64,000 bases of DNA from Tetraselmis striata (taxonomy: Eukaryota > Chlorophyta > Chlorodendrophyceae > Chlorodendrales > Chlorodendraceae), in assembly GCA_006384855.1 (NCBI GenBank), contig VCJN01001170.1, positions 99,748-163,747 on the forward strand, written 5' to 3'. Position numbers and translations under genes: made by a program. This document shows positions 19,629 to 64,000 of this stretch, piece by piece (position 1 is the stretch's first letter; every line of letters begins with the position of its first letter). The notes beneath the pieces are model-generated. The model saw nothing but the letters and a program-made list of their open reading frames with translations, was not told the origin of the DNA and did no database searches.

Positions 19629-19689
19629 TTTCAAGTTGAGTCTGGTTTTGCCAGTTATGAGCGAACGGAGAGAGCGGTGGATTGACGGA

Positions 19690-23451: not shown

Positions 23452-24640
23452 TCATGTGCGAACGGAGAGAGCGGTGGATTGACGGAGAAGGGGTAGCGCC
23501 ACGAAGGCCACCGCTGCGGAGTCTTGTTGGACTTGGAAGTGGCGGAGGGGCGCGATGTGGCGATGATAAGAACCATGCGCCAGGCGAAGAAAGAACGTTG
23601 GGGTCGATGTAGTCCAGAACAACGTCGGAGTCAGTGGCCCAGCCGCCTTGGTAGCGAATGTGGGACAGTGGAGCTCCGATGGCGTTAGCGGCAGACACTG
23701 CTCCCTTGCGAAGGGTATGTGAGCTCCAGAAAGTGCCGGCGGGAGGGGCAGCACCGACAAGACGAACGGATGTAGAGAGCCAGTCCGACATTGTAGCGGC
23801 GGTCTAAGATTTGGACTGCTCGCTTGGGGTAGCCGCCCAAAAGTTAGTCTCGCCCAAGGCAACACGAACCAGGGGGGCAAACAATACGTGGTCGATGAAG
23901 TGGTGCATGGGACGTGCAACGCGGGGGTGTTCGGACTCTGGAAGGAGCAGCACACGCAGGTCATCGGGGGCCCGTCGACCAGCGCGGCCTTTCTCCTCGC
24001 GGTACACCTGCATGGTAATGTTGTAATCGTCGACATGCACATCCCGCACTCGGCAGGAGACGCCAGTAAGTCCCCTGGCAAAGAACATGAAGTTGACAAC
24101 CGAGGCCACGAAGGCTTGGAGGTTGTAGTGGTACTCTGGAGCGGAGCATGCATAATCAACTCTGCCCGCTCGACGAAGCTGTAAGCGACATCAGCAAGCA
24201 AAGGGGCAGCCTCCAACCGACGCTGCCGTAGCATTAGCCCACGACGAGCTGCGGTAAGGTGCAGGCTGTCCTTAGCGATCGGGTCGAGGTTGTGCAGCTC
24301 GAAGAACGTGTCGATTGCGGACAGGTAGGGCTGCAACGACTTAGCCCCAATGTGCCCTCGCTCACCAACCCAAGCAACGTACCGGACGACAGTAGCAGTG
24401 GTCGCTTCCAGCGGGCTGATGTTCTGCAAGTCGTGGCAGAACTCCGCGAACCGAGAGAGTCTGCCGGCGTAGCTCTTGAGGGTCGGAGTGGTGAGGGAGC
24501 TGGAGAGTAGATCGAGAGTCCGATGTCCCAACTCGTCAGAGCCGAATGCGTCCAGCAACCGAGACCGGAGCGAAGCAGCCCAGGGGGCAACAGCTTCGGG
24601 CTCGTTAATTACGTAAGTGGGTCGTTTTACCGACAGAGTT
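23452..24640 (-). pseudogene. Tyrosine recombinase, copy B (frameshift and stop)
   Basis: The upstream core-binding part is open (APWAASLRSRLLDAFGSDEL, SYAGRLSRFAEFCHDLQNIS, SAIDTFFELHNLDP). A frame change occurs near 24,150, then FFARGLTGVSCRVRDV continues in another frame. A TAG at 23,805-23,807 replaces the Trp found in copy A just before TAATMSDWLS. The catalytic end is preserved as HTLRKGAVSAANAIG and IRYQGGWATDSDVVLDYID. Copies A and B thus carry different disabling stops. Confidence 0.72.
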
Positions 24641-25156
24641 CCAAAGGGACGGTTACAGTTAGCAAAATACTCGGCAGCAGCAGTTAAGTTTCCGGCGGTT
24701 GGCCGGTAGCTGCTGGACGGGATTGCCACAGCATCAGTACGGGTTTGCGGGGCTAGGTTCAGGTAGGAGGGCCGCCCCGCGCGCCCTTCGCGCTCGTAGC
24801 GCCTGTCACGCGCGTAACGTACACGCGCAAAGCTTCGTCTTTGCGAACCAATTGTAACACGCAGCGTAACAACGTACGGACGCACCGATGAGATGGTTCG
24901 GAAGGCGGTTTGTTGAGCCGCCATGTGCAGGTGTGCGGATGGTTGAGCCGCACTCGGCTGTAGCTGTAAGAAGCGCCGCACCGAGGAAGGTCTGAATGAA
25001 GTCTGTAAGGTGGGGGGGGGGGGGGGGGGGGGGGAGGTATGGTCCTGAGACATGGCGCTCATCCCGTCGTTGAGCCGCTAGCGATCGCCTTGGGGCGGTC
25101 ACCGAAAGGTGGCCTCGCAAAGCTCCAGCAACTCCGACGAAAGGCGCCCCGCGCCG

Positions 25157-26330
25157 TCACTCGTGCTCACTTTCGCTGCCACGTCCGCGCCCGCCACCAC
25201 GCCCACGCCCACGCCCACGCCCACCCCCACGCCCACACCCACGCCCATGCCCACGCCCACGCCCACGCCCACGCCCACGCCCACGCCCACGCCCACGCCC
25301 ACGCCCACGCCCACGCCCACGCCCACGCCCACGCCCACGCCCACGCCCACGCCCACGCCCACGCCCACGCCCACGCCCACGCCCACGCCCACGCCCACGC
25401 CCACGCCCACGCCCACCCCCACGCCCACCCCCACGCCCACGCCCGCGCCCACGCCCACGCCCACGCCCACGCCCACGCCCACGCCCACGCCCACGCCCAC
25501 GACCTGCAGCCGCGGCCGCTACTCGAGCAGTACATGTTGCCTTGGCGCTGCTGGCCACAGACGCCTCGAAGACACGACGCTCGTAGTCCCTCATTAGGTC
25601 CCCAAAAATCGCGGAACCCAAATGCTCAGAAGTAGGCTGAAAGTGCTGAGCTCGCAGCACGTCCATAACACCTTGGTCACCGTGTACACGCTTGACCTCA
25701 TTAAGCCTCCGCAAGAAGGCCAAACGAAAACGAAACGCCTTGTCGATGGCTTAGGCGTGGTTCCGAGCTCTCGCGAGGTAGGGGGTGAAGTCTGGATTTG
25801 CAGCAGGGACGTAAGGCAGCAGCTCGTCGAGAGCCACGAAAAGTGCAGTCATGTGGGCGCCGAAACACGACATCCATAGATACTCCTCATGGGCCGGCAG
25901 ACGCCGGTCATCCTGCTTGAGGTACTCGTTCGTTAGGTCGGTGCTCAGGGGGAATAGCCCAGGCACCCTGCTAACCGGTCGAACGGCCTCGTAACCATAC
26001 TCTGCTCTCTCCAGTAGTTCTGGCACCGCGAGGTAGTCATCCTCGTCACTCACGGATTTTGCTCCGACACGGCCGCCTTGGGCTAGCTCTAGCAAATCGG
26101 GGCGCTTTGCGGCTCCCCCGCTGATTGTCGGCTGTCCCGCGATGCGCTGCCCGGAACCGGAGCCATGTGCCCCGTCATCTCCATCAACAACACAGTCACG
26201 AGCCGTCAATTGGGCCTACATTGTTGCAAGCTCTTGCAGCAATGTAGGCCTTCACGTCTGCGTGTAGCGATTCGAGCGTCGGCACAACGACGGGTTCTAC
26301 TCCATCTGACATGATAACGCACGGACGTGC
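25157..26330 (-). pseudogene. gag-like protein, copy B, with giant Arg-Gly tail
   Basis: The core matches copy A almost residue for residue, including the in-frame TAA (about 25,751). After [19 protein letters not shown] the frame enters about 50 Arg-Gly dipeptides encoded by the hexanucleotide array (copy A has about five), then ends SESEHE. RG-rich tails bind RNA in many capsid and nucleolar proteins. The expansion is in frame, so it lengthens the tail rather than breaking it. Confidence 0.6.
25197..25502 (+). repeat. (CCCACG)n hexanucleotide array, about 51 units
   Basis: Roughly 306 bp of CCCACG with scattered variants (CCCCCA, CCCGCG, CCCATG). All six frames stay open because the unit is six bases. 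Only the minus-strand frame that reads Arg-Gly continues a real protein. A short (CCCACG)-type run recurs at 36,484-36,507 beside a poly-G tract. Confidence 0.95.
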
Positions 26331-31525: not shown

Positions 31526-31639
31526 CACCGATGTTAATATAGTGTGAATATTATATCGGCCGTAGACGATCAGGTCTGGCAGCACCGCCCGTGCTTGTAA
31601 ATAAGCGACAATGGATCTAGTCTCCCGCTAGTCTGTGCA

Positions 31640-32790
31640 CCGCCAGTGCACTCCGCAAGCCTCGCCTCCATCCGCGTCGGAACCGGTAGTAAGTGTTGTT
31701 GTGTGCGCACATCGTGACAATATTACACGGTGGGAATTGCAATTATTAGCGGTGGATAATGTGAAGGCGTTTCCGAAATCGACAGAGAATGAGGCGGTGC
31801 TGGCGGAGTGCATTGGCGGTGCATAGAATAGCGTGTTGCTGGGGTTTTGGCTGCATCGGACGCCGTATTCCCACCCATCCGGCACGGAATATCCGGTTTT
31901 CACACATTTGTGTGTTAATAAAGTGTGAATATTACGCGTCTTTTACGCCGGGTGGATGGGCATCCGGCGTCCGATGCACCCCAATTATTTGCAGCACGCT
32001 ACTCTACGCACCCCCAACGCACTCCGCAAGCCTCGCCTCCATCCGCGTCGGAACCGGTAGTAAGTGTTGTTGTGTGCGCACATCGTGACAACATTACACG
32101 GTGGCAATTGCAATTAGCGGTGGATAATGTGAAGGCGTTTTCGAAATCGACAGAGAATGAGGCGGTGCTGGCGGAGTGCATTGGCGGTGCATAGAATAGC
32201 GTGGTGCTGGGGTTTTGGCTGCATCGGACACCGTATTCCCACCCATCCGGCACGGAATGTCCGGTTTTCACACATTTGTGTGTTAATAAAGTGTGAATAT
32301 TACGCGTCTTTTACGCCGGGTGGATGGGCATCCGGCGTCCGATGCACCCCAATTATTTGCAGCACGCTACTCTACGCACCCCCAACGCACTCCGCAAGCC
32401 TCGCCTCCATCCGCGTCGGAACCGGTAGTAAGTGTTGTTGTGTGCGCACATCGTGACAACATTACACGGTGGCAATTGCAATTAGCGGTGGATAATGTGA
32501 AGGCGTTTTCGAAATCGACAGAGAATGAGGCGGTGCTGGCGGAGTGCATTGGCGGTGCATAGAATAGCGTGTTGCTGGGGTTTTGGCTGCATCGGACGCC
32601 GTATTCCCACCCATCCGGCACGGAATGTCCGGTTTTCACACATTTGCGTGTGAATATATATAGTGTGAATATTACGTACGCGTCTTTTACGCTGGGTGGA
32701 TGGGCATCCGGCGTCCGATGCACCCCGAATCTCACCAACACGCTACTCTACGCACCCCCAACGCACTCCGCCAGCCCCGCCTCTTTCCGC
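31640..32790 (+). repeat. 368-bp tandem repeat, three copies plus a partial
   Basis: The landmark CACTCCGCAAGCCTCGCC occurs at about 31,648, 32,025 and 32,393, with a diverged fourth start near 32,764. The second and third units are spaced exactly 368 bp; the first is about 377 bp because of small insertions. The copies are nearly identical, so expansion is recent. Open frames across them repeat the same shifted pattern and are not convincing genes. Confidence 0.9.
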
Positions 32791-32879
32791 GCAGGTCCTA
32801 CGTTCCATTGTATGTATATACATACGTACATGTACTGCTCCGAAACCAGCCCAAACTTAATGAGTGCACAAGTGTAAAT

Positions 32880-35047: not shown

Positions 35048-36137
35048 CTGTCTTGGCGCCGCGCTGCCCCGGCCGCCGCGCCTTGGCGCCGCGCTGCCCC
35101 GGCCGCCGCGCCTTGGCACCGCGCTGCCCCGGCCGCCGCGCGTTGGCGCCGCGCTGCCCCGACCGCCGCGCCTTGGCGCCGCGCTGCCCCGGCCGCCGCG
35201 CCTTGGCGCCGCGCTGCCCCGCCCATCCCACTCGCGTTGGCGCCGCGCTGCCCCGGCCGCCGCGCCTTGGCGCCGCGCTGCCCCGGCCGCCGCGCCTTGG
35301 CGCCGCGCTGCCCCGGCCGCCGCGCCTTGGCGCCGCGCTGCCCCGGCCGCCGCGCCTTGGCGCCGCGCTGCCCCGGCCGCCGCCCCTTGGCGCCGCGCTG
35401 CCCCGCCCATCCCACTCGCGTTGGCGCCGCGCTGCCCCGGCCGCCGCGCCTTGGCGCCGCGCTGCCCCGGCCGCCGCGCCTTGGCGCCGCGCTGCCCCGG
35501 CCGCCGCGCCTTGGCGCCGCGCTGCCCCGCCCATCCCACTCGCGTTGGCGCCGCGCTGCCCCGGCCGCCGCGCCTTGGCGCCGCGCTGCCCCGGCCGCCG
35601 CCCCTTGGCGCCGCGCTGCCCCGGCCGCCGCGCCTTGGCGCCGCGCTGCCCCGGCCGCCGCGCCTTGGCGCCGCGCTGCCCCGGCCGCCGCGCCTTGGCG
35701 CCGCGCTGCCCCGGCCGCCGCGCCTTGGCGCCGCGCTGCCCCGGCCGCCGCGCCTTGGCGCCGCGCTGCCCCGGCCGCCGCGCCTTGGCGCCGCGCTGCC
35801 CCGGCCGCCGCCCCTTGGCGCCGCGCTGCCCCGCCCATCCCACTCGCGTTGGCGCCGCGCTGCCCCGGCCGCCGCGCCTTGGCGCCGCGCTGCCCCGGCC
35901 GCCGCCCCTTGGCGCCGCGCTGCCCCGGCCGCCGCGCCTTGGCGCCGCGCTGCCCCGGCCGCCGCGCCTTGGCGCCGCGCTGCCCCGGCCGCCGCGCCTT
36001 GGCGCCGCGCTGCCCCGGCCGCCGCGCCTTGGCGCCGCGCTGCCCCGCCCATCCCACTCGCGTTGGCGCCGCGCTGCCCCGGCCGCCGCGCCTTGGCGCC
36101 GCGCTGCCCCGGCCGCCGCGCCTTGGCGCCGCGCTGG
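35048..36137. repeat. 30-bp GC-rich minisatellite with higher-order structure
   Basis: The unit is CTTGGCGCCGCGCTGCCCCG plus GCCGCCGCGC. About 35 units run without a break. Five variant units carry GCCCATCCCACTCGCG instead and are 34 bp long, at about 35,221, 35,405, 35,529, 35,833 and 36,047. The number of normal units between them is 5, 3, 9 and 6. No unit has a stop codon in several frames on both strands, producing very long artificial open frames. Confidence 0.95.
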
Positions 36138-39708: not shown

Positions 39709-41499
39709 ATGTCGCCTCTCGCGCCCGTCGTGCGAGATGAGGACAACATCCCCCTCATCCGCGGCTTCGGCAAGGGCTTCGTGGAGGACCTCCGCGTGAA
39801 GCTGCCTTGGTATTGGAGCGACATCAGGGACTGCCTCCACACCAAAGCTATCACCGCCGTGCTGTACATCTTCTGGGGTGCCCTCGCGAATGCCGTCGCC
39901 TTCGGCGCGCTGCTGGGCGACGCCACGGAGGGCTACATGGGCGCCACCGAGACCCTGCTGGCGACCGCCACCCTGGGCATGATATACCCCCTGTTGTGCG
40001 GCCAGCCGCTGACAATCATGGGCGCCACCGGCCCTATCGCGGCGTACATTATCGCGCTGCGTAGTATGGGCGCTCTCGTGGGCGTGTCTTTCCTGCCTTT
40101 CTACGCGTGGACCGGTTTGTTCCTTTCGCTGTACCTGTTCCTCGGCGCGATGTTCAGCCTGTCCAACGCGATCCGGATTGTGACTCGATTCACGGAGGAG
40201 CTGTTTTCCGTGCTTGTGTCGGTGATCTTCATCTACGAGGCGGTGCGCTACTTCTTCGCGCTGTTCGCCGACCCCACGGTGTCGCACGGCGAGGCCAAGA
40301 CGGGGCTGTTCGTTGGCCTGGTGACGTTCTTCTCGGCGATTTCTATCCGCGGATGCCGCAACGGGCGCCTGTTCAACCAGTGGGTCCGCAACCGCGTGGC
40401 CGACTTCGCGCCCGTGATCGCCATCTTCCTGGGCCTGGGCATCTCGTGGCTGTTGATCGGACACTACGGCATTGAGAAGATCGACCTGGACTTCCTGCCC
40501 TTCGCCGGTGGCGACATCACCGCCACTACACTAGGCACCGACGTGCGCCCCTGGCTGACGGACCTGTCGGACATCAACGCTGCTGGCATCGGCCTGGCGG
40601 CTGTGGGCGGCCTGTTTGCGTTTATCGTGATCTTCTTCGACCAGAACATCACTGTGCGCCTGGTCAACGCCCGTGAACACAACCTGAAGAAGGGCTACGG
40701 CTATGACATGGACATGTTGGCGCTATGCCTGTGCACCATTGCGCTGTCCCTGGTGGGCTGCCCCTGGATGGTGTCCGCGACGGTGCCATCCCTGAACCAC
40801 TGCCGCGCACTATGCTTCTTCGGCGATGAGGGTGGCAAGAAGGGTGAGGAGCAGAACTCTGAGGCGGCGCTGGAGGAGAAGTCCATGATGGCGATCCAGA
40901 GGGTGCGCAGCCTGGTAGACATGGAGGCCGGTGTGGAGAAGAGCGCAGACAGCGTGGGTGCTGATGGTGTCCAACTGGGTGCGCTGCGCAAGACCGAGAG
41001 CCACCGCGACCTGCTCAAGGCGGTGCACCAGGAGGCGTCCTCTGCCCTGGAGATCCTGGCACTGCCTACTGGCACCCAGATCACGGGATGCTTGGAGCAG
41101 CGCGTGACCGCCTTCCTGACCCATCTGCTAATCATGCTGTCGCTGCTTTTCCTGCGCCCCGCCCTGGCCAGCATCCCGCTGGCGGTGCTACGCGGCCTGT
41201 TCATGTACAATGGATGGTCCAACCTGGCTGGCAATGAGTTCTGGGATCGCCTGTTCCTGCCCATCACGGACAAGACGAAGCTGCCCAACAAGTCGTACTG
41301 CAAGGTGAAGATGTGGAAGGCGTACGCCTGGACGGCAATCCAGCTGGTGCTGCTGGTGGCGGTGCTGGTCCTGATGCGCTCGCCGGCGGGCTTTGTGTTC
41401 CCTCTAGCTATTGGCATGCTGCATCCCATCAAGATTGGCATCTCCAAGATGAAGTGGCTGTCGGAGGAGGATGTGGAGGCGCTGGACTCTCACTTCTAA
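39709..41499 (+). CDS. SLC4-family bicarbonate/borate transporter, intronless, 596 aa
   Basis: A single open frame encodes a membrane protein with about 12 hydrophobic segments and no large cytosolic N-domain, as in plant/fungal BOR and algal SLC4 proteins. Diagnostic stretches are [16 protein letters not shown] (about residues 98-113), [40 protein letters not shown] and [20 protein letters not shown], followed by [17 protein letters not shown] charged ~110-residue cytosolic loop ([20 protein letters not shown]) separates the last membrane block. The protein should move bicarbonate or borate across the plasma or an internal membrane; in algae such proteins feed the carbon-concentrating mechanism. 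The ATG at 39,709 is the first in frame. No break is seen. Substrate choice cannot be read from sequence alone. Confidence 0.92.
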
Positions 41500-49636: not shown

Positions 49637-50470
49637 GCCGTGAGATCGTGATCGGACGGCTGTGTAATTAAGGACCGTGGGCGGGCGGGTGGGCGGGTGG
49701 GTGGGTGGATTATAGTACTTAGAAGTACATGACAGTAGATAAGCGCTTTAGTCATGCACCTATAGGCCCGATCCGCTGCACTATACGGGTACCCGTACGG
49801 CAATATAGCTCACCGCCGAAAAATCGACGCTTCGCTGGATAATAGGATATATTATATAATAAATATAAGAATAAAAATAAAATTATATATGTGTATACAT
49901 ACATACATATATATATGTATGTATGTATGTATACATATATATATATTATAGGATATTGATGAGGACTGGGAGCCGCGTTGTTAACATGTGGGCCTTGTTG
50001 ATTGCTCACAGGACACTTGTGGCCTATCTATTGCCAAGAAAACACGCAGGTGATATATTTTTGCTTTCACGTGAGTGAGCGTTATATTGTTGTGTTGAAT
50101 TTCAACTAATGATATGTGATATGCACTTTGTTGAATAATATGCAGTTTTGAAGCGGCTAGTGCGCATGAAAAATGCGCTGTGGTTGTGAAGGATGGTGGA
50201 GCCAATCTAGAGACTGCCACTCGTGCTCTGTGAACCGCTGGCGTCGATGGTGTGCCTCCGTGGATCTGCGCGCCGATTGGTGGGGCGCAAGTTTCGAAAT
50301 CCACAAGCTGGGCTCGTGGTATCAACGGCGCCGGCAACGCGGTGGTACGGACTGCTAAGACGGACTGCTACGGCGGTACACACTGCTAAGAACCATGCTG
50401 CGGGTTTGGTCACTTGGCATCTTTGCATAAGAATGCCATTGGAACGTTTGGCATGCTATGCACCGTTTTA
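49637..50470. other. AT-rich spacer before the mariner array
   Basis: No gene is recognised. A long alternating ATGT/TACA and TATA stretch at 49,840-49,955 is nearly self-complementary (CATACATACATATATATATG then GTATGTATGTATACAT) and could form a cruciform. Confidence 0.45.
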
Positions 50471-51602
50471 TCTCAATGTACAAGGCCCAATCAATTCAAT
50501 GTAAAATATGGGGCTTGTAGCCAACACTCCTACCCAAAACACCCCCCTATTATATGTGGCGCATCCAGCTTCGATTGCACATGAGCACGAACCCTACTCC
50601 GACTAGGGTTTGCCATTTATTTTGACGCGTAGTGAGCAAGACGAAGATGTAACGCACTTTTCAGGTGGCAGTACTTTGCACAATCGTTACAAGCTGCGCT
50701 TTTGCTAGCGATGGCCACTATTCATCATGTATATATGTTGCGCTCTATGTGACCGCCGTGCAGCGCGATCACCTTGAGCAAGCGTCTCCGCATTGATTTC
50801 ACTTGCTTTTTAAAATTATCACGCGGGATTTCGGCGAGCGCCCGTTGGATTGCAGACTTGAAGCTCGCCTTAGTCTTGTACCTGCTGCCCATGAGCTTAC
50901 CATCAATAAGCTCGTTTCATATTTTCTCCATCCAGTTCAGATCCGGAGATTTAGGCGGAGCTTGAAGCACCGACACTTCGGTTTGATATGTCTCCCATTC
51001 TGGGTGGTACATGGTAGCCGTGTTGCGCGCCGTCGGGTGATGACGTCGTGCAAGGCTCATCCACACGACATCGGCTGTCCCAATCCCCGAAGCACGCTGA
51101 ATGGTGTTGTTAGATACCTCTTTCGGTGTCTGGCCAGAGTCGTGCAAACGTTTGGCGATAATCCTCGATCCAACTTTGGTGCGGCCGGAGGCGATACGTT
51201 TTGCGGCAGTGACCGCCGCGCCATCCAACGACCGCTTACGGCCTTGCCCTTGCTTGTTATCCGTGCCTTGTTCGGCTGCATGCCGTTCCGCCCAACGCTT
51301 CACGAAGCGGACATCACGGTGCAAGTGCCGAGCCGCCGCTGGCACGTCCCCGTTGCATGCTTGCAATAGTACCGGCACCGCTTCTCGACCAGCTTTGCTG
51401 CTCCGCGGCCTCCGCGCCATCTTTCTATATTGTCAATATATATGGCGCACACAATGAGCGGCGCATAGCGCAGCGTGAGATGGGGGTACTCCGGAGCGGT
51501 CGCCCTGAGGCTTACAGTGGTCTACATGTAAGGACATCGTTGGCTTTAAGGAAATAGGCGGCGAGCTCAGCGAATCATTAAATGTGGTTGGCGCCCAACG
51601 CT
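50471..51602 (-). repeat. Inverted partial unit at the array edge
   Basis: This is the reverse complement of 52,197-53,333 in unit 1. It ends at GCGTTAGCGTTGGGC-type sequence fused directly to half of the 37-bp palindrome (CGCGCGCCGTAAGAG). Together with unit 1 it makes a hairpin with arms of about 1.13 kb and a loop of about 0.6 kb. Confidence 0.93.
50917..51420 (-). pseudogene. Mariner transposase remnant, inverted copy
   Basis: Same 167-residue frame as in the direct units but with SKAGREAV (Gly) where they have SKADREAV, and a TGA at the Trp position of the MEKIW-NEL motif. It lacks the catalytic centre. Confidence 0.85.
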
Positions 51603-51800
51603 AACGCGCGCCGTAAGAGCACCTAAAAAACCCCCTAAGTCCAAATCCGTCATAGATGTCATATATTTCCACCTAAATTCTACGATTTGAGCAATTGTTT
51701 TCGGACATTTCGGGTTAGGTAAACACCGGCAGGTCATCGCGCGTCCCATGTTCGCGGGGTTTTCGAAATGGTTTCGGAATCGCAAAATACTCGCCAACTA

Positions 51801-53205
51801 CCCCCGGAGTACCGTTTGCTTACCATTAATTTTGAAGCGTAGTGAGCAGCCCAAATACGAAGTCACAGTGCTCCCAACGATTGCGGTGCCACGCAACGCG
51901 TCCATCCTAGCTACACATGTTTGCGCAATATCACGCTCTAGTTTTGTTTCCGTTGCAAGATATGCGCGCATATTGGTTTCGGAAATCGGTTTCGGAGCTC
52001 GGCATGAAATGCTTTAATTCAGAACAAAAATAAGTTTACATAATGTATACTCTCGGTTGCTATGCAATGTTATATTCGATGTTTGCACGTGCATCATGCA
52101 TCGTCACGTGTCCGCGTGCCACGCGCCCCCATAGCTTTGTTGGCTAGCCTATGCATGGTGTGCATCGTTCATGATTTGTTTGGACGGTCGGCATGTGTTA
52201 GCGTTGGGCGCCAACCACATTTAATGATTCGCTGAGCTCGCCGCCTATTTCCTTAAAGCCAACGATGTCCTTACATGTAGACCACTGTAAGCCTCAGGGC
52301 GACCGCTCCGGAGTACCCCCATCTCACGCTGCGCTATGCGCCGCTCATTGTGTGCGCCATATATATTGACAATATAGTAAGATGGCGCGGAGGCCGCGGA
52401 GCAGCAAAGCTGATCGAGAAGCGGTGCCGGTACTATTGCAAGCATGCAACGGGGACGTGCCAGCGGCGGCTCGGCACTTGCACCGTGATGTGCGCTTCGT
52501 GAAGCGTTGGGCGGAACGGCATGCAGCCGAACAAGGCACGGATAACAAGCAAGGGCAAGGCCGTAAGCGGTCGTTGGATGGCGCGGCGGTCACTGCCGCA
52601 AAACGTATCGCCTCCGGCCGCACCAAAGTTGGATCGAGGATTATCGCCAAACGTTTGCACGACTCTGGCCAGACACCGAAAGAGGTATCTAACAACACCA
52701 TTCAGCGTGCTTCGGGGATTGGGACAGCCGATGTCGTGTGGATGAGCCTTGCACGACGTCATCACCCGACGGCGCGCAACACGGCTACCAGGTACCACCC
52801 AGAATGGGAGACATATCAAACCGAAGTGTCGGTGCTTCAAGCTCCGCCTAAATCTCCGGATCTGAACTGGATGGAGAACATATGAAACGAGCTTATTGAT
52901 GATAAGCTCATGGGCAGCAGGTACAAGACTAAGGCGAGCTTCAAGTCTGCAATCCAACGGGCGCTCGCCGAAATCCCGCGTGATTATTTTAAAAAGCAAG
53001 TGAAATCAATGCGGAGACGCTTGCGCAAGGTGATCGCGCTGCACGGCGGTCACATAGAGCGCAACATATATACATGATGAATAGTGGCCATCGCTAGCAA
53101 AAGCGCAGCTTGTAACGATTGTGCAAAGTACTGCCACCTGAAAAGTGCGTTACATCTTCGTCTTGCTCACTACGCGTCAAAATAAATGGCAAACCCTAGT
53201 CGGAG
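51801..53205 (+). mobile_element. Tc1/mariner deletion derivative (unit 1), with inverted repeats
   Basis: The left end reads CCCCCGGAGTACCGTTTGC and the right end, read inward, CTCCGACTAGGGTTTGCC. Both continue into an almost identical CATTwATTTTGAmGCGTAG block followed by TGAGC. TA borders both ends (51,799-51,800 and 53,206-53,207). The imperfect inverted repeat is about 47 bp. The same element recurs at 53,904-55,308, 56,007-57,411, 58,110-59,514, 60,213-61,617 and 62,316-63,720. Confidence 0.85.
52382..53077 (+). pseudogene. Tc1/mariner transposase remnant, unit 1
   Basis: ATG at 52,382 opens a 167-residue frame. The N-terminal half is a DNA-binding helix-turn-helix (VPAARHLHRDVRFVKRWAER, basic linker GQGRKRS, then TIQRASGIG). 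Then, abruptly, comes the C-terminal catalytic motif PPKSPDLNWMENI (family: SPDLNPIENxW). The two Asp-bearing blocks that should lie between are deleted. A TGA at 52,883-52,885 replaces the conserved Trp, after which the same frame goes on for 63 codons (NELIDDKLMG to SMRRRLRKVIALHGGHIE, the usual Tc1 ending) to a second TGA at 53,075-53,077. It could bind transposon ends but cannot cut DNA. Confidence 0.88.
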
Positions 53206-53474
53206 TAGGGTTCGTGCTCATGTGCAATCGAAGCTGGATGCGCCACATATAATAGGGGGGTGTTTTGGGTAGGAGTGTTGGCTACAAGCCCCATATTTTA
53301 CATTGAATTGATTGGGCCTTGTACATTGAGATGTACGTAGATGTAAAAACCACACACGAATTTCGCGAGTCTTGAGTTTACATAAGCACAAATAATCATA
53401 AAAATATTCCTAGGCGCCAAAGTGTGGCGGGTCTTTGGCATGGCTCTGTAGCAATCGACTGCCCATCCATGTGC

Positions 53475-53900
53475 TCAGATGGCACCGCGGCCGATCCCGC
53501 ATCGCGTCTTCTTGCCGCTCGTAATGCGCGCGTACATTGACGTTACACAATTGTTACACGTGTCGCGATGCACGTACTCGCGTAGGCGGCCATTCTTTGT
53601 GTAACGAGACCGCGAAAATTTTGGCAACCGATGCATGTGGTAGTGCACGACTACCTCTACACGGTGGGGCAAAGCATGTATCCAACTCTTACGGCGCGCG
53701 CCGCAGGCGCGCGCCGTAAGAGCACCTAAAAAACCCCCTAAGTCCAAATCCGTCATAGATGTCATATATTTCCACCTAAATTCTACGATTTGAGCAATTG
53801 TTTTCGGACATTTCGGGTTAGGTAAACACCGGCAGGTCATCGCGCGTCCCATGTTCGCGGGGTTTTCGAAATGGTTTCGGAATCGCAAAATACTCGCCAA
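53475..53900 (-). CDS. Hypothetical 141-aa frame across the unit junction
   Basis: A minus-strand frame spans the palindrome and ends in a Cys-containing stretch (HRDTCNNCVTSMYARITSGK then KTRC). It is preserved in all five complete junctions, but the units are nearly identical so conservation carries no weight. No family is recognised. The same frame lies at 55,578-56,003, 57,681-58,106, 59,784-60,209 and 61,887-62,312. Confidence 0.2.
   Translation of the reverse strand: MASILRFRNHFENPANMGRAMTCRCLPNPKCPKTIAQIVEFRWKYMTSMTDLDLGGFLGALTARACGARRKSWIHALPHRVEVVVHYHMHRLPKFSRSRYTKNGRLREYVHRDTCNNCVTSMYARITSGKKTRCGIGRGAI
53686..53722. repeat. 37-bp palindrome at unit junctions
   Basis: CTCTTACGGCGCGCGCC, loop GCA, then the exact complement: 17-bp perfect arms around a 3-base loop. 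It recurs at 55,789-55,825, 57,892-57,928, 59,995-60,031 and 62,098-62,134. The first unit has only the right half. It could be a fused inverted transposon end or a break and repair hotspot. Confidence 0.95.
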
Positions 53901-55806
53901 CTACCCCCGGAGTACCGTTTGCTTACCATTAATTTTGAAGCGTAGTGAGCAGCCCAAATACGAAGTCACAGTGCTCCCAACGATTGCGGTGCCACGCAAC
54001 GCGTCCATCCTAGCTACACATGTTTGCGCAATATCACGCTCTAGTTTTGTTTCCGTTGCAAGATATGCGCGCATATTGGTTTCGGAAATCGGTTTCGGAG
54101 CTCGGCATGAAATGCTTTAATTCAGAACAAAAATAAGTTTACATAATGTATACTCTCGGTTGCTATGCAATGTTATATTCGATGTTTGCACGTGCATCAT
54201 GCATCGTCACGTGTCCGCGTGCCACGCGCCCCCATAGCTTTGTTGGCTAGCCTATGCATGGTGTGCATCGTTCATGATTTGTTTGGACGGTCGGCATGTG
54301 TTAGCGTTGGGCGCCAACCACATTTAATGATTCGCTGAGTTCGCCGCCTATTTCCTTAAAGCCAACGATGTCCTTACATGTAGACCACTGTAAGCCTCAG
54401 GGCGACCGCTCCGGAGTACCCCCATCTCACGCTGCGCTATGCGCCGCTCATTGTGTGCGCCATATCTATTGACAATATAGAAAGATGGCGCGGAGGCCGC
54501 GGAGCAGCAAAGCTGATCGAGAAGCGGTGCCGGTACTATTGCAAGCATGCAACGGGGACGTGCCAGCGGCGGCTCGGCACTTGCACCGTGATGTGCGCTT
54601 CGTGAAGCGTTGGGCGGAACGGCATGCAGCCGAACAAGGCACGGATAACAAGCAAGGGCAAGGCCGTAAGCGGTCGTTGGATGGCGCGGCGGTCACTGCC
54701 GCAAAACGTATCGCCTCCGGCCGCACCAAAGTTGGATCGAGGATTATCGCCAAACGTTTGCACGACTCTGGCCAGACACCGAAAGAGGTATCTAACAACA
54801 CCATTCAGCGTGCTTCGGGGATTGGGACAGCCGCTGTCGTGTGGATGAGCCTTGCACGACGTCATCACCCGACGGCGCGCAACACGGCTACCAGGTACCA
54901 CCCAGAATGGGAGACATATCAAACCGAAGTGTCGGTGCTTCAAGCTCCGCCTAAATCTCCGGATCTGAACTGGATGGAGAACATATGAAACGAGCTTATT
55001 GATGATAAGCTCATGGGCAGCAGGTACAAGACTAAGGCGAGCTTCAAGTCTGCAATCCAACGGGCGCTCGCCGAAATCCCGCGTGATTATTTTAAAAAGC
55101 AAGTGAAATCAATGCGGAGACGCTTGCGCAAGGTGATCGCGCTGCACGGCGGTCACATAGAGCGCAACATATATACATGATGAATAGTGGCCATCGCTAG
55201 CAAAAGCGCAGCTTGTAACGATTGTGCAAAGTACTGCCACCTGAAAAGTGCGTTACATCTTCGTCTTGCTCACTACGCGTCAAAATAAATGGCAAACCCT
55301 AGTCGGAGTAGGGTTCGTGCTCATGTGCAATCGAAGCTGGATGCGCCACATATAATAGGGGGGTGTTTTGGGTAGGAGTGTTGGCTACAAGCCCCATATT
55401 TTACATTGAATTGATTGGGCCTTGTACATTGAGATGTACGTAGATGTAAAAACCACACACGAATTTCGCGAGTCTTGAGTTTACATAAGCACAAATAATC
55501 ATAAAAATATTCCTAGGCGCCAAAGTGTGGCGGGTCTTTGGCATGGCTCTGTAGCAATCGACTGCCCATCCATGTGCTCAGATGGCACCGCGGCCGATCC
55601 CGCATCGCGTCTTCTTGCCGCTCGTAATGCGCGCGTACATTGACGTTACACAATTGTTACACGTGTCGCGATGCACGTACTCGCGTAGGCGGCCATTCTT
55701 TGTGTAACGAGACCGCGAAAATTTTGGCAACCGATGCATGTGGTAGCGCACGACTACCTCTACACGGTGGGGCAAAGCATGTATCCAACTCTTACGGCGC
55801 GCGCCG
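53704..55806 (+). repeat. Array unit 2
   Basis: Mariner element at 53,904-55,308, palindrome at 55,789-55,825. It carries ATATAGAAAGATGG before the transposase start, as in the inverted copy, whereas units 1 and 3-6 have ATATAGTAAGATGG. Confidence 0.95.
54485..55180 (+). pseudogene. Mariner transposase remnant, unit 2
   Basis: As unit 1, with GTAAVVW instead of GTADVVW. TGA at 54,986-54,988, continuation to 55,180. Confidence 0.87.
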
Positions 55807-57909
55807 CAGGCGCGCGCCGTAAGAGCACCTAAAAAACCCCCTAAGTCCAAATCCGTCATAGATGTCATATATTTCCACCTAAATTCTACGATTTGAGCAA
55901 TTGTTTTCGGACATTTCGGGTTAGGTAAACACCGGCAGGTCATCGCGCGTCCCATGTTCGCGGGGTTTTCGAAATGGTTTCGGAATCGCAAAATACTCGC
56001 CAACTACCCCCGGAGTACCGTTTGCTTACCATTAATTTTGAAGCGTAGTGAGCAGCCCAAATACGAAGTCACAGTGCTCCCAACGATTGCGGTGCCACGC
56101 AACGCGTCCATCCTAGCTACACATGTTTGCGCAATATCACGCTCTAGTTTTGTTTCCGTTGCAAGATATGCGCGCATATTGGTTTCGGAAATCGGTTTCG
56201 GAGCTCGGCATGAAATGCTTTAATTCAGAACAAAAATAAGTTTACATAATGTATACTCTCGGTTGCTATGCAATGTTATATTCGATGTTTGCACGTGCAT
56301 CATGCATCGTCACGTGTCCGCGTGCCACGCGCCCCCATAGCTTTGTTGGCTAGCCTATGCATGGTGTGCATCGTTCATGATTTGTTTGGACGGTCGGCAT
56401 GTGTTAGCGTTGGGCGCCAACCACATTTAATGATTCGCTGAGTTCGCCGCCTATTTCCTTAAAGCCAACGATGTCCTTACATGTAGACCACTGTAAGCCT
56501 CAGGGCGACCGCTCCGGAGTACCCCCATCTCACGCTGCGCTATGCGCCGCTCATTGTGTGCGCCATATCTATTGACAATATAGTAAGATGGCGCGGAGGC
56601 CGCGGAGCAGCAAAGCTGATCGAGAAGCGGTGCCGGTACTATTGCAAGCATGCAACGGGGACGTGCCAGCGGCGGCTCGGCACTTGCACCGTGATGTGCG
56701 CTTCGTGAAGCGTTGGGCGGAACGGCATGCAGCCGAACAAGGCACGGATAACAAGCAAGGGCAAGGCCGTAAGCGGTCGTTGGATGGCGCGGCGGTCACT
56801 GCCGCAAAACGTATCGCCTCCGGCCGCACCAAAGTTGGATCGAGGATTATCGCCAAACGTTTGCACGACTCTGGCCAGACACCGAAAGAGGTATCTAACA
56901 ACACCATTCAGCGTGCTTCGGGGATTGGGACAGCCGCTGTCGTGTGGATGAGCCTTGCACGACGTCATCACCCGACGGCGCGCAACACGGCTACCAGGTA
57001 CCACCCAGAATGGGAGACATATCAAACCGAAGTGTCGGTGCTTCAAGCTCCGCCTAAATCTCCGGATCTGAACTGGATGGAGAACATATGAAACGAGCTT
57101 ATTGATGATAAGCTCATGGGCAGCAGGTACAAGACTAAGGCGAGCTTCAAGTCTGCAATCCAACGGGCGCTCGCCGAAATCCCGCGTGATTATTTTAAAA
57201 AGCAAGTGAAATCAATGCGGAGACGCTTGCGCAAGGTGATCGCGCTGCACGGCGGTCACATAGAGCGCAACATATATACATGATGAATAGTGGCCATCGC
57301 TAGCAAAAGCGCAGCTTGTAACGATTGTGCAAAGTACTGCCACCTGAAAAGTGCGTTACATCTTCGTCTTGCTCACTACGCGTCAAAATAAATGGCAAAC
57401 CCTAGTCGGAGTAGGGTTCGTGCTCATGTGCAATCGAAGCTGGATGCGCCACATATAATAGGGGGGTGTTTTGGGTAGGAGTGTTGGCTACAAGCCCCAT
57501 ATTTTACATTGAATTGATTGGGCCTTGTACATTGAGATGTACGTAGATGTAAAAACCACACACGAATTTCGCGAGTCTTGAGTTTACATAAGCACAAATA
57601 ATCATAAAAATATTCCTAGGCGCCAAAGTGTGGCGGGTCTTTGGCATGGCTCTGTAGCAATCGACTGCCCATCCATGTGCTCAGATGGCACCGCGGCCGA
57701 TCCCGCATCGCGTCTTCTTGCCGCTCGTAATGCGCGCGTACATTGACGTTACACAATTGTTACACGTGTCGCGATGCACGTACTCGCGTAGGCGGCCATT
57801 CTTTGTGTAACGAGACCGCGAAAATTTTGGCAACCGATGCATGTGGTAGCGCACGACTACCTCTACACGGTGGGGCAAAGCATGTATCCAACTCTTACGG
57901 CGCGCGCCG
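55807..57909 (+). repeat. Array unit 3
   Basis: Mariner element at 56,007-57,411, palindrome at 57,892-57,928. No difference from unit 4 was noticed. Confidence 0.95.
56588..57283 (+). pseudogene. Mariner transposase remnant, unit 3
   Basis: Same protein as unit 2. TGA at 57,089-57,091, continuation to 57,283. Confidence 0.87.
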
Positions 57910-60012
57910 CAGGCGCGCGCCGTAAGAGCACCTAAAAAACCCCCTAAGTCCAAATCCGTCATAGATGTCATATATTTCCACCTAAATTCTACGATTTGAG
58001 CAATTGTTTTCGGACATTTCGGGTTAGGTAAACACCGGCAGGTCATCGCGCGTCCCATGTTCGCGGGGTTTTCGAAATGGTTTCGGAATCGCAAAATACT
58101 CGCCAACTACCCCCGGAGTACCGTTTGCTTACCATTAATTTTGAAGCGTAGTGAGCAGCCCAAATACGAAGTCACAGTGCTCCCAACGATTGCGGTGCCA
58201 CGCAACGCGTCCATCCTAGCTACACATGTTTGCGCAATATCACGCTCTAGTTTTGTTTCCGTTGCAAGATATGCGCGCATATTGGTTTCGGAAATCGGTT
58301 TCGGAGCTCGGCATGAAATGCTTTAATTCAGAACAAAAATAAGTTTACATAATGTATACTCTCGGTTGCTATGCAATGTTATATTCGATGTTTGCACGTG
58401 CATCATGCATCGTCACGTGTCCGCGTGCCACGCGCCCCCATAGCTTTGTTGGCTAGCCTATGCATGGTGTGCATCGTTCATGATTTGTTTGGACGGTCGG
58501 CATGTGTTAGCGTTGGGCGCCAACCACATTTAATGATTCGCTGAGTTCGCCGCCTATTTCCTTAAAGCCAACGATGTCCTTACATGTAGACCACTGTAAG
58601 CCTCAGGGCGACCGCTCCGGAGTACCCCCATCTCACGCTGCGCTATGCGCCGCTCATTGTGTGCGCCATATCTATTGACAATATAGTAAGATGGCGCGGA
58701 GGCCGCGGAGCAGCAAAGCTGATCGAGAAGCGGTGCCGGTACTATTGCAAGCATGCAACGGGGACGTGCCAGCGGCGGCTCGGCACTTGCACCGTGATGT
58801 GCGCTTCGTGAAGCGTTGGGCGGAACGGCATGCAGCCGAACAAGGCACGGATAACAAGCAAGGGCAAGGCCGTAAGCGGTCGTTGGATGGCGCGGCGGTC
58901 ACTGCCGCAAAACGTATCGCCTCCGGCCGCACCAAAGTTGGATCGAGGATTATCGCCAAACGTTTGCACGACTCTGGCCAGACACCGAAAGAGGTATCTA
59001 ACAACACCATTCAGCGTGCTTCGGGGATTGGGACAGCCGCTGTCGTGTGGATGAGCCTTGCACGACGTCATCACCCGACGGCGCGCAACACGGCTACCAG
59101 GTACCACCCAGAATGGGAGACATATCAAACCGAAGTGTCGGTGCTTCAAGCTCCGCCTAAATCTCCGGATCTGAACTGGATGGAGAACATATGAAACGAG
59201 CTTATTGATGATAAGCTCATGGGCAGCAGGTACAAGACTAAGGCGAGCTTCAAGTCTGCAATCCAACGGGCGCTCGCCGAAATCCCGCGTGATTATTTTA
59301 AAAAGCAAGTGAAATCAATGCGGAGACGCTTGCGCAAGGTGATCGCGCTGCACGGCGGTCACATAGAGCGCAACATATATACATGATGAATAGTGGCCAT
59401 CGCTAGCAAAAGCGCAGCTTGTAACGATTGTGCAAAGTACTGCCACCTGAAAAGTGCGTTACATCTTCGTCTTGCTCACTACGCGTCAAAATAAATGGCA
59501 AACCCTAGTCGGAGTAGGGTTCGTGCTCATGTGCAATCGAAGCTGGATGCGCCACATATAATAGGGGGGTGTTTTGGGTAGGAGTGTTGGCTACAAGCCC
59601 CATATTTTACATTGAATTGATTGGGCCTTGTACATTGAGATGTACGTAGATGTAAAAACCACACACGAATTTCGCGAGTCTTGAGTTTACATAAGCACAA
59701 ATAATCATAAAAATATTCCTAGGCGCCAAAGTGTGGCGGGTCTTTGGCATGGCTCTGTAGCAATCGACTGCCCATCCATGTGCTCAGATGGCACCGCGGC
59801 CGATCCCGCATCGCGTCTTCTTGCCGCTCGTAATGCGCGCGTACATTGACGTTACACAATTGTTACACGTGTCGCGATGCACGTACTCGCGTAGGCGGCC
59901 ATTCTTTGTGTAACGAGACCGCGAAAATTTTGGCAACCGATGCATGTGGTAGCGCACGACTACCTCTACACGGTGGGGCAAAGCATGTATCCAACTCTTA
60001 CGGCGCGCGCCG
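57910..60012 (+). repeat. Array unit 4
   Basis: Mariner element at 58,110-59,514, palindrome at 59,995-60,031. Confidence 0.95.
58691..59386 (+). pseudogene. Mariner transposase remnant, unit 4
   Basis: Same protein as unit 3. TGA at 59,192-59,194, continuation to 59,386. Confidence 0.87.
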
Positions 60013-62115
60013 CAGGCGCGCGCCGTAAGAGCACCTAAAAAACCCCCTAAGTCCAAATCCGTCATAGATGTCATATATTTCCACCTAAATTCTACGATTT
60101 GAGCAATTGTTTTCGGACATTTCGGGTTAGGTAAACACCGGCAGGTCATCGCGCGTCCCATGTTCGCGGGGTTTTCGAAATGGTTTCGGAATCGCAAAAT
60201 ACTCGCCAACTACCCCCGGAGTACCGTTTGCTTACCATTAATTTTGAAGCGTAGTGAGCAGCCCAAATACGAAGTCACAGTGCTCCCAACGATTGCGGTG
60301 CCACGCAACGCGTCCATCCTAGCTACACATGTTTGCGCAATATCACGCTCTAGTTTTGTTTCCGTTGCAAGATATGCGCGCATATTGGTTTCGGAAATCG
60401 GTTTCGGAGCTCGGCATGAAATGCTTTAATTCAGAACAAAAATAAGTTTACATAATGTATACTCTCGGTTGCTATGCAATGTTATATTCGATGTTTGCAC
60501 GTGCATCATGCATCGTCACGTGTCCGCGTGCCACGCGCCCCCATAGCTTTGTTGGCTAGCCTATGCATGGTGTGCATCGTTCATGATTTGTTTGGACGGT
60601 CGGCATGTGTTAGCGTTGGGCGCCAACCACATTTAATGATTCGCTGAGTTCGCCGCCTATTTCCTTAAAGCCAACGATGTCCTTACATGTAGACCACTGT
60701 AAGCCTCAGGGCGACCGCTCCGGAGTACCCCCATCTCACGCTGCGCTATGCGCCGCTCATTGTGTGCGCCATATCTATTGACAATATAGTAAGATGGCGC
60801 GGAGGCCGCGGAGCAGCAAAGCTGATCGAGAAGCGGTGCCGGTACTATTGCAAGCATGCAACGGGGACGTGCCAGCGGCGGCTCGGCACTTGCACCGTGA
60901 TGTGCGCTTCGTGAAGCGTTGGGCGGAACGGCATGCAGCCGAACAAGGCACGGATAACAAGCAAGGGCAAGGCCGTAAGCGGTCGTTGGATGGCGCGGCG
61001 GTCACTGCCGCAAAACGTATCGCCTCCGGCCGCACCAAAGTTGGATCGAGGATTATCGCCAAACGTTTGCACGACTCTGGCCAGACACCGAAAGAGGTAT
61101 CTAACAACACCATTCAGCGTGCTTCGGGGATTGGGACAGCCGCTGTCGTGTGGATGAGCCTTGCACGACGTCATCACCCGACGGCGCGCAACACGGCTAC
61201 CAGGTACCACCCAGAATGGGAGACATATCAAACCGAAGTGTCGGTGCTTCAAGCTCCGCCTAAATCTCCGGATCTGAACTGGATGGAGAACATATGAAAC
61301 GAGCTTATTGATGATAAGCTCATGGGCAGCAGGTACAAGACTAAGGCGAGCTTCAAGTCTGCAATCCAACGGGCGCTCGCCGAAATCCCGCGTGATTATT
61401 TTAAAAAGCAAGTGAAATCAATGCGGAGACGCTTGCGCAAGGTGATCGCGCTGCACGGCGGTCACATAGAGCGCAACATATATACATGATGAATAGTGGC
61501 CATCGCTAGCAAAAGCGCAGCTTGTAACGATTGTGCAAAGTACTGCCACCTGAAAAGTGCGTTACATCTTCGTCTTGCTCACTACGCGTCAAAATAAATG
61601 GCAAACCCTAGTCGGAGTAGGGTTCGTGCTCATGTGCAATCGAAGCTGGATGCGCCACATATAATAGGGGGGTGTTTTGGGTAGGAGTGTTGGCTACAAG
61701 CCCCATATTTTACATTGAATTGATTGGGCCTTGTACATTGAGATGTACGTAGATGTAAAAACCACACACGAATTTCGCGAGTCTTGAGTTTACATAAGCA
61801 CAAATAATCATAAAAATATTCCTAGGCGCCAAAGTGTGGCGGGTCTTTGGCATGGCTCTGTAGCAATCGACTGCCCATCCATGTGCTCAGATGGCACCGC
61901 GGCCGATCCCGCATCGCGTCTTCTTGCCGCTCGTAATGCGCGCGTACATTGACGTTACACAATTGTTACACGTGTCGCGATGCACGTACTCGCGTAGGCG
62001 GCCATTCTTTGTGTAACGAGACCGCGAAAATTTTGGCAACCGATGCATGTGGTAGCGCACGACTACCTCTACACGGTGGGGCAAAGCATGTATCCAACTC
62101 TTACGGCGCGCGCCG
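60013..62115 (+). repeat. Array unit 5
   Basis: Mariner element at 60,213-61,617, palindrome at 62,098-62,134. Confidence 0.95.
60794..61489 (+). pseudogene. Mariner transposase remnant, unit 5
   Basis: Same protein as unit 3. TGA at 61,295-61,297, continuation to 61,489. Confidence 0.87.
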
Positions 62116-64000
62116 CAGGCGCGCGCCGTAAGAGCACCTAAAAAACCCCCTAAGTCCAAATCCGTCATAGATGTCATATATTTCCACCTAAATTCTACGA
62201 TTTGAGCAATTGTTTTCGGACATTTCGGGTTAGGTAAACACCGGCAGGTCATCGCGCGTCCCATGTTCGCGGGGTTTTCGAAATGGTTTCGGAATCGCAA
62301 AATACTCGCCAACTACCCCCGGAGTACCGTTTGCTTACCATTAATTTTGAAGCGTAGTGAGCAGCCCAAATACGAAGTCACAGTGCTCCCAACGATTGCG
62401 GTGCCACGCAACGCGTCCATCCTAGCTACACATGTTTGCGCAATATCACGCTCTAGTTTTGTTTCCGTTGCAAGATATGCGCGCATATTGGTTTCGGAAA
62501 TCGGTTTCGGAGCTCGGCATGAAATGCTTTAATTCAGAACAAAAATAAGTTTACATAATGTATACTCTCGGTTGCTATGCAATGTTATATTCGATGTTTG
62601 CACGTGCATCATGCATCGTCACGTGTCCGCGTGCCACGCGCCCCCATAGCTTTGTTGGCTAGCCTATGCATGGTGTGCATCGTTCATGATTTGTTTGGAC
62701 GGTCGGCATGTGTTAGCGTTGGGCGCCAACCACATTTAATGATTCGCTGAGTTCGCCGCCTATTTCCTTAAAGCCAACGATGTCCTTACATGTAGACCAC
62801 TGTAAGCCTCAGGGCGACCGCTCCGGAGTACCCCCATCTCACGCTGCGCTATGCGCCGCTCATTGTGTGCGCCATATCTATTGACAATATAGTAAGATGG
62901 CGCGGAGGCCGCGGAGCAGCAAAGCTGATCGAGAAGCGGTGCCGGTACTATTGCAAGCATGCAACGGGGACGTGCCAGCGGCGGCTCGGCACTTGCACCG
63001 TGATGTGCGCTTCGTGAAGCGTTGGGCGGAACGGCATGCAGCCGAACAAGGCACGGATAACAAGCAAGGGCAAGGCCGTAAGCGGTCGTTGGATGGCGCG
63101 GCGGTCACTGCCGCAAAACGTATCGCCTCCGGCCGCACCAAAGTTGGATCGAGGATTATCGCCAAACGTTTGCACGACTCTGGCCAGACACCGAAAGAGG
63201 TATCTAACAACACCATTCAGCGTGCTTCGGGGATTGGGACAGCCGCTGTCGTGTGGATGAGCCTTGCACGACGTCATCACCCGACGGCGCGCAACACGGC
63301 TACCAGGTACCACCCAGAATGGGAGACATATCAAACCGAAGTGTCGGTGCTTCAAGCTCCGCCTAAATCTCCGGATCTGAACTGGATGGAGAACATATGA
63401 AACGAGCTTATTGATGATAAGCTCATGGGCAGCAGGTACAAGACTAAGGCGAGCTTCAAGTCTGCAATCCAACGGGCGCTCGCCGAAATCCCGCGTGATT
63501 ATTTTAAAAAGCAAGTGAAATCAATGCGGAGACGCTTGCGCAAGGTGATCGCGCTGCACGGCGGTCACATAGAGCGCAACATATATACATGATGAATAGT
63601 GGCCATCGCTAGCAAAAGCGCAGCTTGTAACGATTGTGCAAAGTACTGCCACCTGAAAAGTGCGTTACATCTTCGTCTTGCTCACTACGCGTCAAAATAA
63701 ATGGCAAACCCTAGTCGGAGTAGGGTTCGTGCTCATGTGCAATCGAAGCTGGATGCGCCACATATAATAGGGGGGTGTTTTGGGTAGGAGTGTTGGCTAC
63801 AAGCCCCATATTTTACATTGAATTGATTGGGCCTTGTACATTGAGATGTACGTAGATGTAAAAACCACACACGAATTTCGCGAGTCTTGAGTTTACATAA
63901 GCACAAATAATCATAAAAATATTCCTAGGCGCCAAAGTGTGGCGGGTCTTTGGCATGGCTCTGTAGCAATCGACTGCCCATCCATGTGCTCAGATGGCAC
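62116..64000 (+). repeat. Array unit 6, cut by the window edge
   Basis: Mariner element at 62,316-63,720. The window ends 1,885 bp into the unit, so the array continues to the right for an unknown distance. Confidence 0.95.
62897..63592 (+). pseudogene. Mariner transposase remnant, unit 6
   Basis: Same protein as unit 3. TGA at 63,398-63,400, continuation to 63,592. Confidence 0.87.

Follow-up and report, generated by a model that had tools for sequence, protein, structure and literature searches.

A 2,103-bp tandem array in Tetraselmis striata as the probable multimer of a composite-like Tc1/mariner transposon with long terminal direct repeats

RESULTS

The array and its two-part unit

We analyzed a 64,000-nucleotide stretch of the Tetraselmis striata assembly (hereafter, the window), which is the end of contig VCJN01001170.1 (positions 99748 to 163747; here C933, with other contigs, C, and loci, L, also given by our own handles). 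From about position 51,605 of the window to its end at 64,000, a tandem repeat with an exact period of 2,103 bp forms 5.9 direct units. This array is very probably the multimeric, A-(B-A)n form of a composite-like Tc1/mariner transposon with long terminal direct repeats. The unit consists of a 780-bp segment, A, and a 1,323-bp segment, B, with borders placed by solo copies of A. A (for example, 53168 to 53947, + strand) is the terminal direct repeat and carries terminal inverted repeats (TIRs) of its own (CACTACGCG...GCGTAGTG), and B (53948 to 55270, + strand) is the internal region, with a defective Tc1/mariner transposase; both recur every 2,103 bp.

An earlier reading of these letters alone (the sequence-only reading) had counted six direct units at this spacing. 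The exact period stands, with 5.9 direct units, but the segment from 50,470 to 51,613 is an inverted copy and not a direct unit. Its description of nearly identical units arising by tandem amplification of a Tc1/mariner derivative agrees with our self-comparison of the array, which at an offset of one period gave 6 mismatches in 10,293 positions (52237, 52363, 52378, 52731, 53644, and 54481). The units thus carry distinct variants, and the final 9.5 kb, beyond the mismatch at 54,481, is free of differences at this offset. A genome search with one unit also found full units on several other contigs. The best 37 of 277 candidates were scored in this search, and the other copy searches covered the best 40 of 481, 40 of 296, and 40 of 60 candidates; the copy counts given here are lower bounds.

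A is a mobile element that targets TA

A starts with CACTACGCGTCAAAAT, and its far end is the inverted counterpart, with matches at 18 of the first 20 bases. Among the matches listed, the 780-bp part stands alone at 27 loci, all of them flanked by TA on both sides (background TA frequency, 3.5%). Two of the 27 have a one-base change in the tip, and not all are independent insertions: flanks are common to C1030 and C2442, and to C2053 (at 101,192) and C2608. Within the window array, CT precedes A and AG follows it in 6 of 6 cases, and TA never does either; B has no TA at its borders.

The solo copies bear directly on the possibility that an ordinary mariner of about 1.4 kb was amplified together with 695 bp of neighboring DNA as a macrosatellite, by unequal exchange or rolling-circle replication. 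An exact period and near-identical units are what such a process would leave. We nevertheless give it hardly any credence, because the 695 bp that the sequence-only reading took for inert outside DNA is the interior of A, the mobile part, bounded by TA at 27/27 solo loci; none of the 27 solo copies ends at the borders drawn in that reading; and the two-part build recurs in a family without significant DNA similarity, described below. Judged from the solo copies, the supposed TA-bordered ends of the mariner are not true ends and lie about 40 to 45 bp inside A.

Occupied and empty sites were also compared. One TA of an abundant repeat holds the array A(BA)3 on C1950 and a solo A on C2053 and C2608. 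Searching with the flanks joined by one TA yielded 41 matches, of which 40 continue uninterrupted through the site; because these came from the best 40 of 1,285 candidates, they prove that empty sites exist, not how frequent they are. When 28 flank pairs were compared with the sequences examined, with up to four differences allowed, the solo A of C1518 had an empty site with one TA and 0 mismatches in the window and at two other loci. A single TA target thus accommodates A or, at C1950, an entire array. The presence of an array in one copy of the repeat site and of solos in two others is compatible with recombination in place, but given the age and divergence of these copies it is no more than suggestive.

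In a FastTree tree of 49 A copies, 29 of them labeled solo, the solos of C468, C123, C210, C448, C2006, C1980, and C2880 cluster around the A type found in the C1950 array, and these seven have different flanks. Since recombination at one locus cannot seed other loci, A has moved, either alone or within a composite that later collapsed. Two copies labeled solo in the tree, on C2853 and C2579 (flanks in common), consist of A and a truncated B and are counted here as partial arrays.

The assertion that transposition cannot make such an array therefore does not hold as the whole story: A itself is a TA-targeting mobile element, and whole arrays lie between TA dinucleotides at C1950 and, in the second family, at C704. 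Unequal exchange or circle amplification, which the sequence-only reading proposed instead, is accepted as a likely driver of array growth, although the recombination itself is something that we infer.

Arrays at other loci have TA at their outer tips

Arrays elsewhere in the genome read A-(B-A)n with TA outside. The array of C1950 (L014, 1216-8282) is closed, TA-A-B-A-B-A-B-A-TA, with nonarray flanks on both sides, and C1891, C588, C365, C2652, C711, C16, C2853, and C2579 each have one full outer A tip adjoining TA. Among the arrays and partial arrays of this family (family 1), the full outer A tips inspected were TA-adjacent in 10/10 cases. Nine contigs (C933, C16, C1891, C588, C2438, C2652, C365, C1710, and C1080) start or stop inside the repeat, which fits long arrays, as these make assemblies end in this way. 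No observation points to a centromere or subtelomere, a choice that the sequence-only reading had left open: such arrays are present on many contigs, beside solo copies and monomers, and this spread speaks against a confined centromeric or subtelomeric satellite. The C933 array is counted in the same composite family on the strength of its sequence identity to arrays with regular A tips.

A second family and a fossil have the same build

A genome search for DDE_3 gave 97 matches, including tandem series at about 2,680 and 1,336 bp. A second, distantly related family has the same A/B build as family 1, with an A2 of 1,347 bp (tips CACCCCTCCACATAAG) and a B2 of 1,333 bp. An outer or solo A2 tip is present in 19 of the 20 family-2 stretches examined (none in C1788), and 18 of these 19 have TA-adjacent tips; in 10/10 further cases, B2 meets A2 at one and the same base. 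The element of C704 is TA-A2-B2-B2-B2-B2-A2-TA with nonarray flanks on both sides, C2880 has a monomer, A2-B2-A2, and full B2 copies stand in series on C211 (8 copies) and C1257 (10 copies).

B2 encodes an open 385-amino-acid transposase (437 codons from stop to stop) that takes up 1,155 of its 1,333 bp. Its matches to HTH_Tnp_Tc3_2 (46.5 bits) and DDE_3 (31.8 bits) both exceed the Pfam cutoff, and Sleeping Beauty is its only PDB sequence match (E = 1.2e-18). Families 1 and 2 have no significant DNA similarity and a local protein match of 13 residues (E = 0.001) at the SPDLxWxEN motif. Family 2 looks recently active, given that the B2 copies among the matches listed are 98 to 100% identical and that the transposase is apparently intact.

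A fossil on C2837, TA-A'-B'-A'-TA, is made of pieces 70 to 82% identical to family 1 with the same A/B borders, and a young solo A has inserted in its right repeat; C720 and C1885 have the A/B border in common with family 1. Because the second family has the same build and the diverged fossil the same borders, the composite build is inherited and old, not an accident at one locus.

These borders also weigh on a different origin, in which two independent insertions of A, as a miniature inverted-repeat transposable element (MITE), chanced to bracket a host or older-transposon segment, B, with amplification and spread of the product only afterward. Bacterial composite transposons are considered to originate in this manner (PMC9587614), yet for the elements described here we regard such an origin as very improbable. 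It predicts TA at the inner borders, and none is found in 6/6 window units or at the family-2 and fossil inner borders read. Inside the composite, A is flanked by AGCA on either side in family 1, the window family, and by TG on either side in family 2. Wherever an intact border was inspected, B or B2 meets A or A2, or another B after 3 nucleotides (nt), at the same bases and without TA. Moreover, chance bracketing would have to account for one build in two families without significant DNA similarity and for borders shared with a diverged fossil.

Two other identities were considered and rejected. The letters around B (GCGTA|GTGAGCA) would fit a separate TA-flanked transposon in family 1 only, as family 2 has no TA there, and a CACTA/EnSpm element, to which the CACTA tip pointed, is ruled out by the TA duplication and by the Tc1/mariner transposase of family 2.

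Family-2 arrays lie on C211, C1257, C1788, C1650, C40, C1383, C2096, and C2247, and their transposase is apparently intact. Three pattern matches to relatives of this transposase in viral contigs were obtained, none confirmed. Among Tc1/mariner-like loci, L049, L050, L052, and L053 have no direct repeats of at least 25 bp within the ~1.5 kb of flank searched, which is too little to decide, and L048, also with ~1.5 kb of flank, has just low-complexity or short direct repeats among those shown. IS630-like transposases on C2385, C2605, C2441, and also C554 scored far above the other matches of the DDE_3 search. These contigs are perhaps bacterial contaminants, a reading weakened for C554, which also carries a family-2 A2-B2 copy.

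Direct B-B joints carry 3 extra nucleotides

Where B follows B directly, 3 extra nt stand at each joint read, in three families: B|CTG|B at C1710 (2 joints), B|CAG|B at C2652 (1 joint), and B|TTG|B at C720 (3 joints), with B2|CAG|B2 in family 2 at C164 and C704. Loci L055 to L057 overlap, and their joints are not independent. A uniform B series, with 8 matches at 1,326-bp spacing, is found on C1710, where the two joints were read. Sleeping Beauty and mariner enzymes cut the nontransferred strand 3 nt inside the element and leave 3-nt overhangs and footprints (PMC7827188). The tips of A are CAC...GTG, and joined trimmed tips would give C+TG and CA+G; TTG fits with one change. We read the joints as putative marks either of excision of A with a Tc1/mariner-type footprint or of closure of a B circle.

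The latter option belongs to another account of the arrays, in which A and B multiplied mainly through a circle-making reaction of the transposase, using the tips that face B "inside out," and not through host recombination. This reaction would produce B circles with a 3-nt joint as well as A+B circles. The joints fit B-circle closure as well as they fit loss of A, and the uniform B series of C1710 is in its favor, while C704, which has A2 at its two outer ends only, is compatible with both routes. We still consider the circle route unlikely to be the main one, since host recombination between direct repeats of 780 to 1,347 bp requires no new enzyme activity; the circles themselves would be invisible in an assembly.

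The family-1 transposase has lost its core

In the window, the transposase of B is reduced to a 167-amino-acid remnant (54485 to 54988, + strand, from the list of open reading frames) in which the helix-turn-helix (HTH) region runs straight into the catalytic domain at its SPDLNWMEN end. A stop codon follows, after which the C-terminal part continues in frame to about 55,180; the 167-amino-acid frame recurs in every direct unit. As the sequence-only reading had recognized, the mariner carries an internal deletion: ~366 bp that include the D1 and D2 motifs (assigned by our own reading) are present in the C720 relative and absent from the window unit. The remnant was read out from the copy at 56,588. 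The matches of the window family to HTH_32 (22.1 bits) and DDE_3 (12.6 bits) are weak and fall under the Pfam cutoff, its core being deleted.

The edges of the array and a hairpin near three breakpoints

The left edge of the window array is an inverted, truncated unit at 50470 to 51613 (- strand), found by inverted-repeat search and self-comparison, that runs from A position 165 to 1 and then from B position 1,323 to 345. This 1,144-bp stretch is an inverted copy of 52,189 to 53,332 with 11 differences, and because of these it is not a perfect palindromic artifact. It meets the array at a hairpin within A, with the junction near 51,605 (about A position 541), and a 28-nt pattern spanning the junction occurs once in the assembly. 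The hairpin is a perfect inverted repeat with 17-bp arms and a 3-nt loop at A positions 519 to 555 (53686 to 53722). Three rearrangement breakpoints lie at or near it, namely, the window junction, C2438 (about A position 530), and C711 (A position 538 joined to 627), and the length of this region varies between copies.

On the right, the array runs off the contig end, and its far edge is out of view. A contig that stops inside an array is also what an assembly artifact would present, with the array really a collapsed or overjoined single unit. We judge this very improbable, as the window units carry distinct variants at six offset mismatches, and C1950 (three Bs) and C704 (four B2s) hold closed arrays, each with nonarray sequence on either side.

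Observations that weigh against a composite transposon

Several observations count against the composite interpretation or narrow it. The visible part of the C933 array offers no clean A tip flanked by TA: on the left stands the rearranged inverted junction, the right edge lies beyond the contig end, and the unit count is assembly based. C16 is the best candidate for the other edge, but it may be another locus, since it differs from the window units by fixed changes throughout (2 to 3 substitutions in A; 3 to 7 in B plus an indel). Among outer tips, the array of C2438 ends in the broken A noted above, the right A2 tip of C1350 has no TA, and the left tip of C2880 and the right tip of C807 have a one-base change and were assigned by eye. 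At C1950, the three Bs are identical, yet up to 9 substitutions, as well as indels, separate the four As. This pattern is not one that simple exchange of whole units predicts; it might come from conversion of the As by dispersed solo copies. Groupings in the tree of A copies were read without branch supports, and solo A copies could partly be products of recombination. Finally, no intact family-1 transposase was found: the core is missing, judged by length, in 19/19 full-length family-1 B copies compared, and its supply in trans is therefore an assumption.

Other features of the window

Two minus-strand reading frames of the window, at 23452 to 25062 and at 19655 to 20465, look alike by eye. 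The former matches a phage-integrase SAM-like domain (PF02899, 27.7 bits), which suggests a possible tyrosine-recombinase element, DIRS- or Crypton-like. An uninterrupted 596-amino-acid frame at 39709 to 41499 (+ strand) matches HCO3_cotransp (PF00955, 381 bits). A 30-bp minisatellite of 35.5 copies at 35052 to 36136 is open in several frames on both strands, and further tandem arrays lie at 31626 to 32791 (368 bp, 3.1 copies), 14427 to 15095 (225 bp, 3.0 copies), and 25179 to 25501 (CCACGC, 54 copies).

DISCUSSION

How the composite would move and multiply

We propose that A acts as a long terminal direct repeat with a complete pair of inverted repeats and that B, between two As, encodes (or once encoded) the transposase. 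A related transposase acting in trans would move A alone, as a MITE, or, through the two outermost tips, the whole A-B-A. Arrays would then grow by homologous recombination between direct As, through unequal sister exchange or through an A+B circle reentering an A, and the same recombination may collapse an array to a solo A. Excision of an inner A would leave B-B with a C(A/T)G-like scar, and the resulting B series could be amplified in turn. In mariner, second-strand cleavage depends critically on the T of the flanking TA, and Sleeping Beauty requires a TA beside at least one end (PMC4344528). Inner A tips do not have the preferred flanking TA, so that inner As should be excised only weakly, and this would favor the persistence of the composite.

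Taken a step further, and with less assurance than the nature of the array itself, we think it probable that LTR-like (composite; LTR, long terminal repeat) DNA transposons evolved independently a second time in eukaryotes, as the present lineage within Tc1/mariner. This lineage would multimerize without a homing endonuclease; inner tips without TA would favor use of the outermost ones, and the B-B joints would record residual excisions.

Comparison with known systems

The composite elements resemble Tc1/mariner transposons such as Sleeping Beauty and Mos1 in the TA target duplication, TIRs, and HTH and DDE transposase; the 3-nt joints may correspond to the 3-nt footprints that such transposons leave on excision. 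Ordinary Tc1/mariner elements carry the transposase between two TIRs, whereas B lies outside the TIR pair of each A and is enclosed only by the outermost pair of A-B-A. Direct terminal repeats, solo repeats, and arrays that share repeats recall LTR retrotransposons and the tandem arrays of terminal-repeat retrotransposons in miniature (TRIM). Unlike in those elements, the repeats here carry TIRs and the duplication is the 2-bp TA; no reverse transcriptase match was found among the frames scanned with Pfam. The movement of an internal segment by two mobile direct repeats is also a feature of bacterial composite transposons and IS26 pseudo-composites. There, the transposase is a product of the flanking insertion sequences (ISs); in the present elements its gene lies in the middle segment, and the scanned frames of A gave no Pfam match.

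The closest likeness is to KolobokP (Kojima and Bao 2022; PMC9587614). KolobokP, of the Kolobok superfamily, is found in seven animal phyla and has a 3- to 5-bp target site duplication (TSD). Long terminal direct repeats (LTDRs) with their own TIRs flank an internal region (INT), LTDR-INT-LTDR, which holds the transposase and a His-Me homing endonuclease. Many solo LTDRs occur, as do (LTDR-INT)n-LTDR multimers with the TSD at their outer ends and LTDR-(INT)n-LTDR forms with altered INT-INT joints. Its authors called this build "Unlike any other DNA transposons." The T. striata elements share with it terminal direct repeats with TIRs around an internal region, solos, multimers, and internal-internal joints. 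They differ in having a Tc1/mariner-type HTH plus DDE_3 transposase and a TA duplication, not the Kolobok DDD/E type, and in gaining 3 nt at B-B joints, where KolobokP loses 3 to 4 bp at INT-INT joints; the series of 8 and 10 full B2 copies on C211 and C1257 are a further difference. No Pfam match to a second nuclease was found in the scanned frames of A, A2, B, and B2, although a very divergent one could escape.

A Tc1/mariner element with long terminal direct repeats was not found in the open-access literature, judged mostly by titles and the openings of abstracts, which does not prove its absence from print; the term "direct repeat" was not found in the available part of a paper on Tisochrysis lutea transposons (PMC5963040). 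As far as we searched, the build has been described once before, in animal KolobokP of a different superfamily, and the Tc1/mariner case appears to be new.

The KolobokP article left open how a composite with excisable repeats keeps its integrity (PMC9587614), a question on which the proposed weak excision of inner As bears. If our interpretation is true, this question becomes testable in Tc1/mariner, a superfamily with well-studied biochemistry, and the formation of multimers would not need a homing endonuclease. The T. striata elements would then show in concrete terms how a cut-and-paste transposon can give rise to tandem arrays at dispersed loci.

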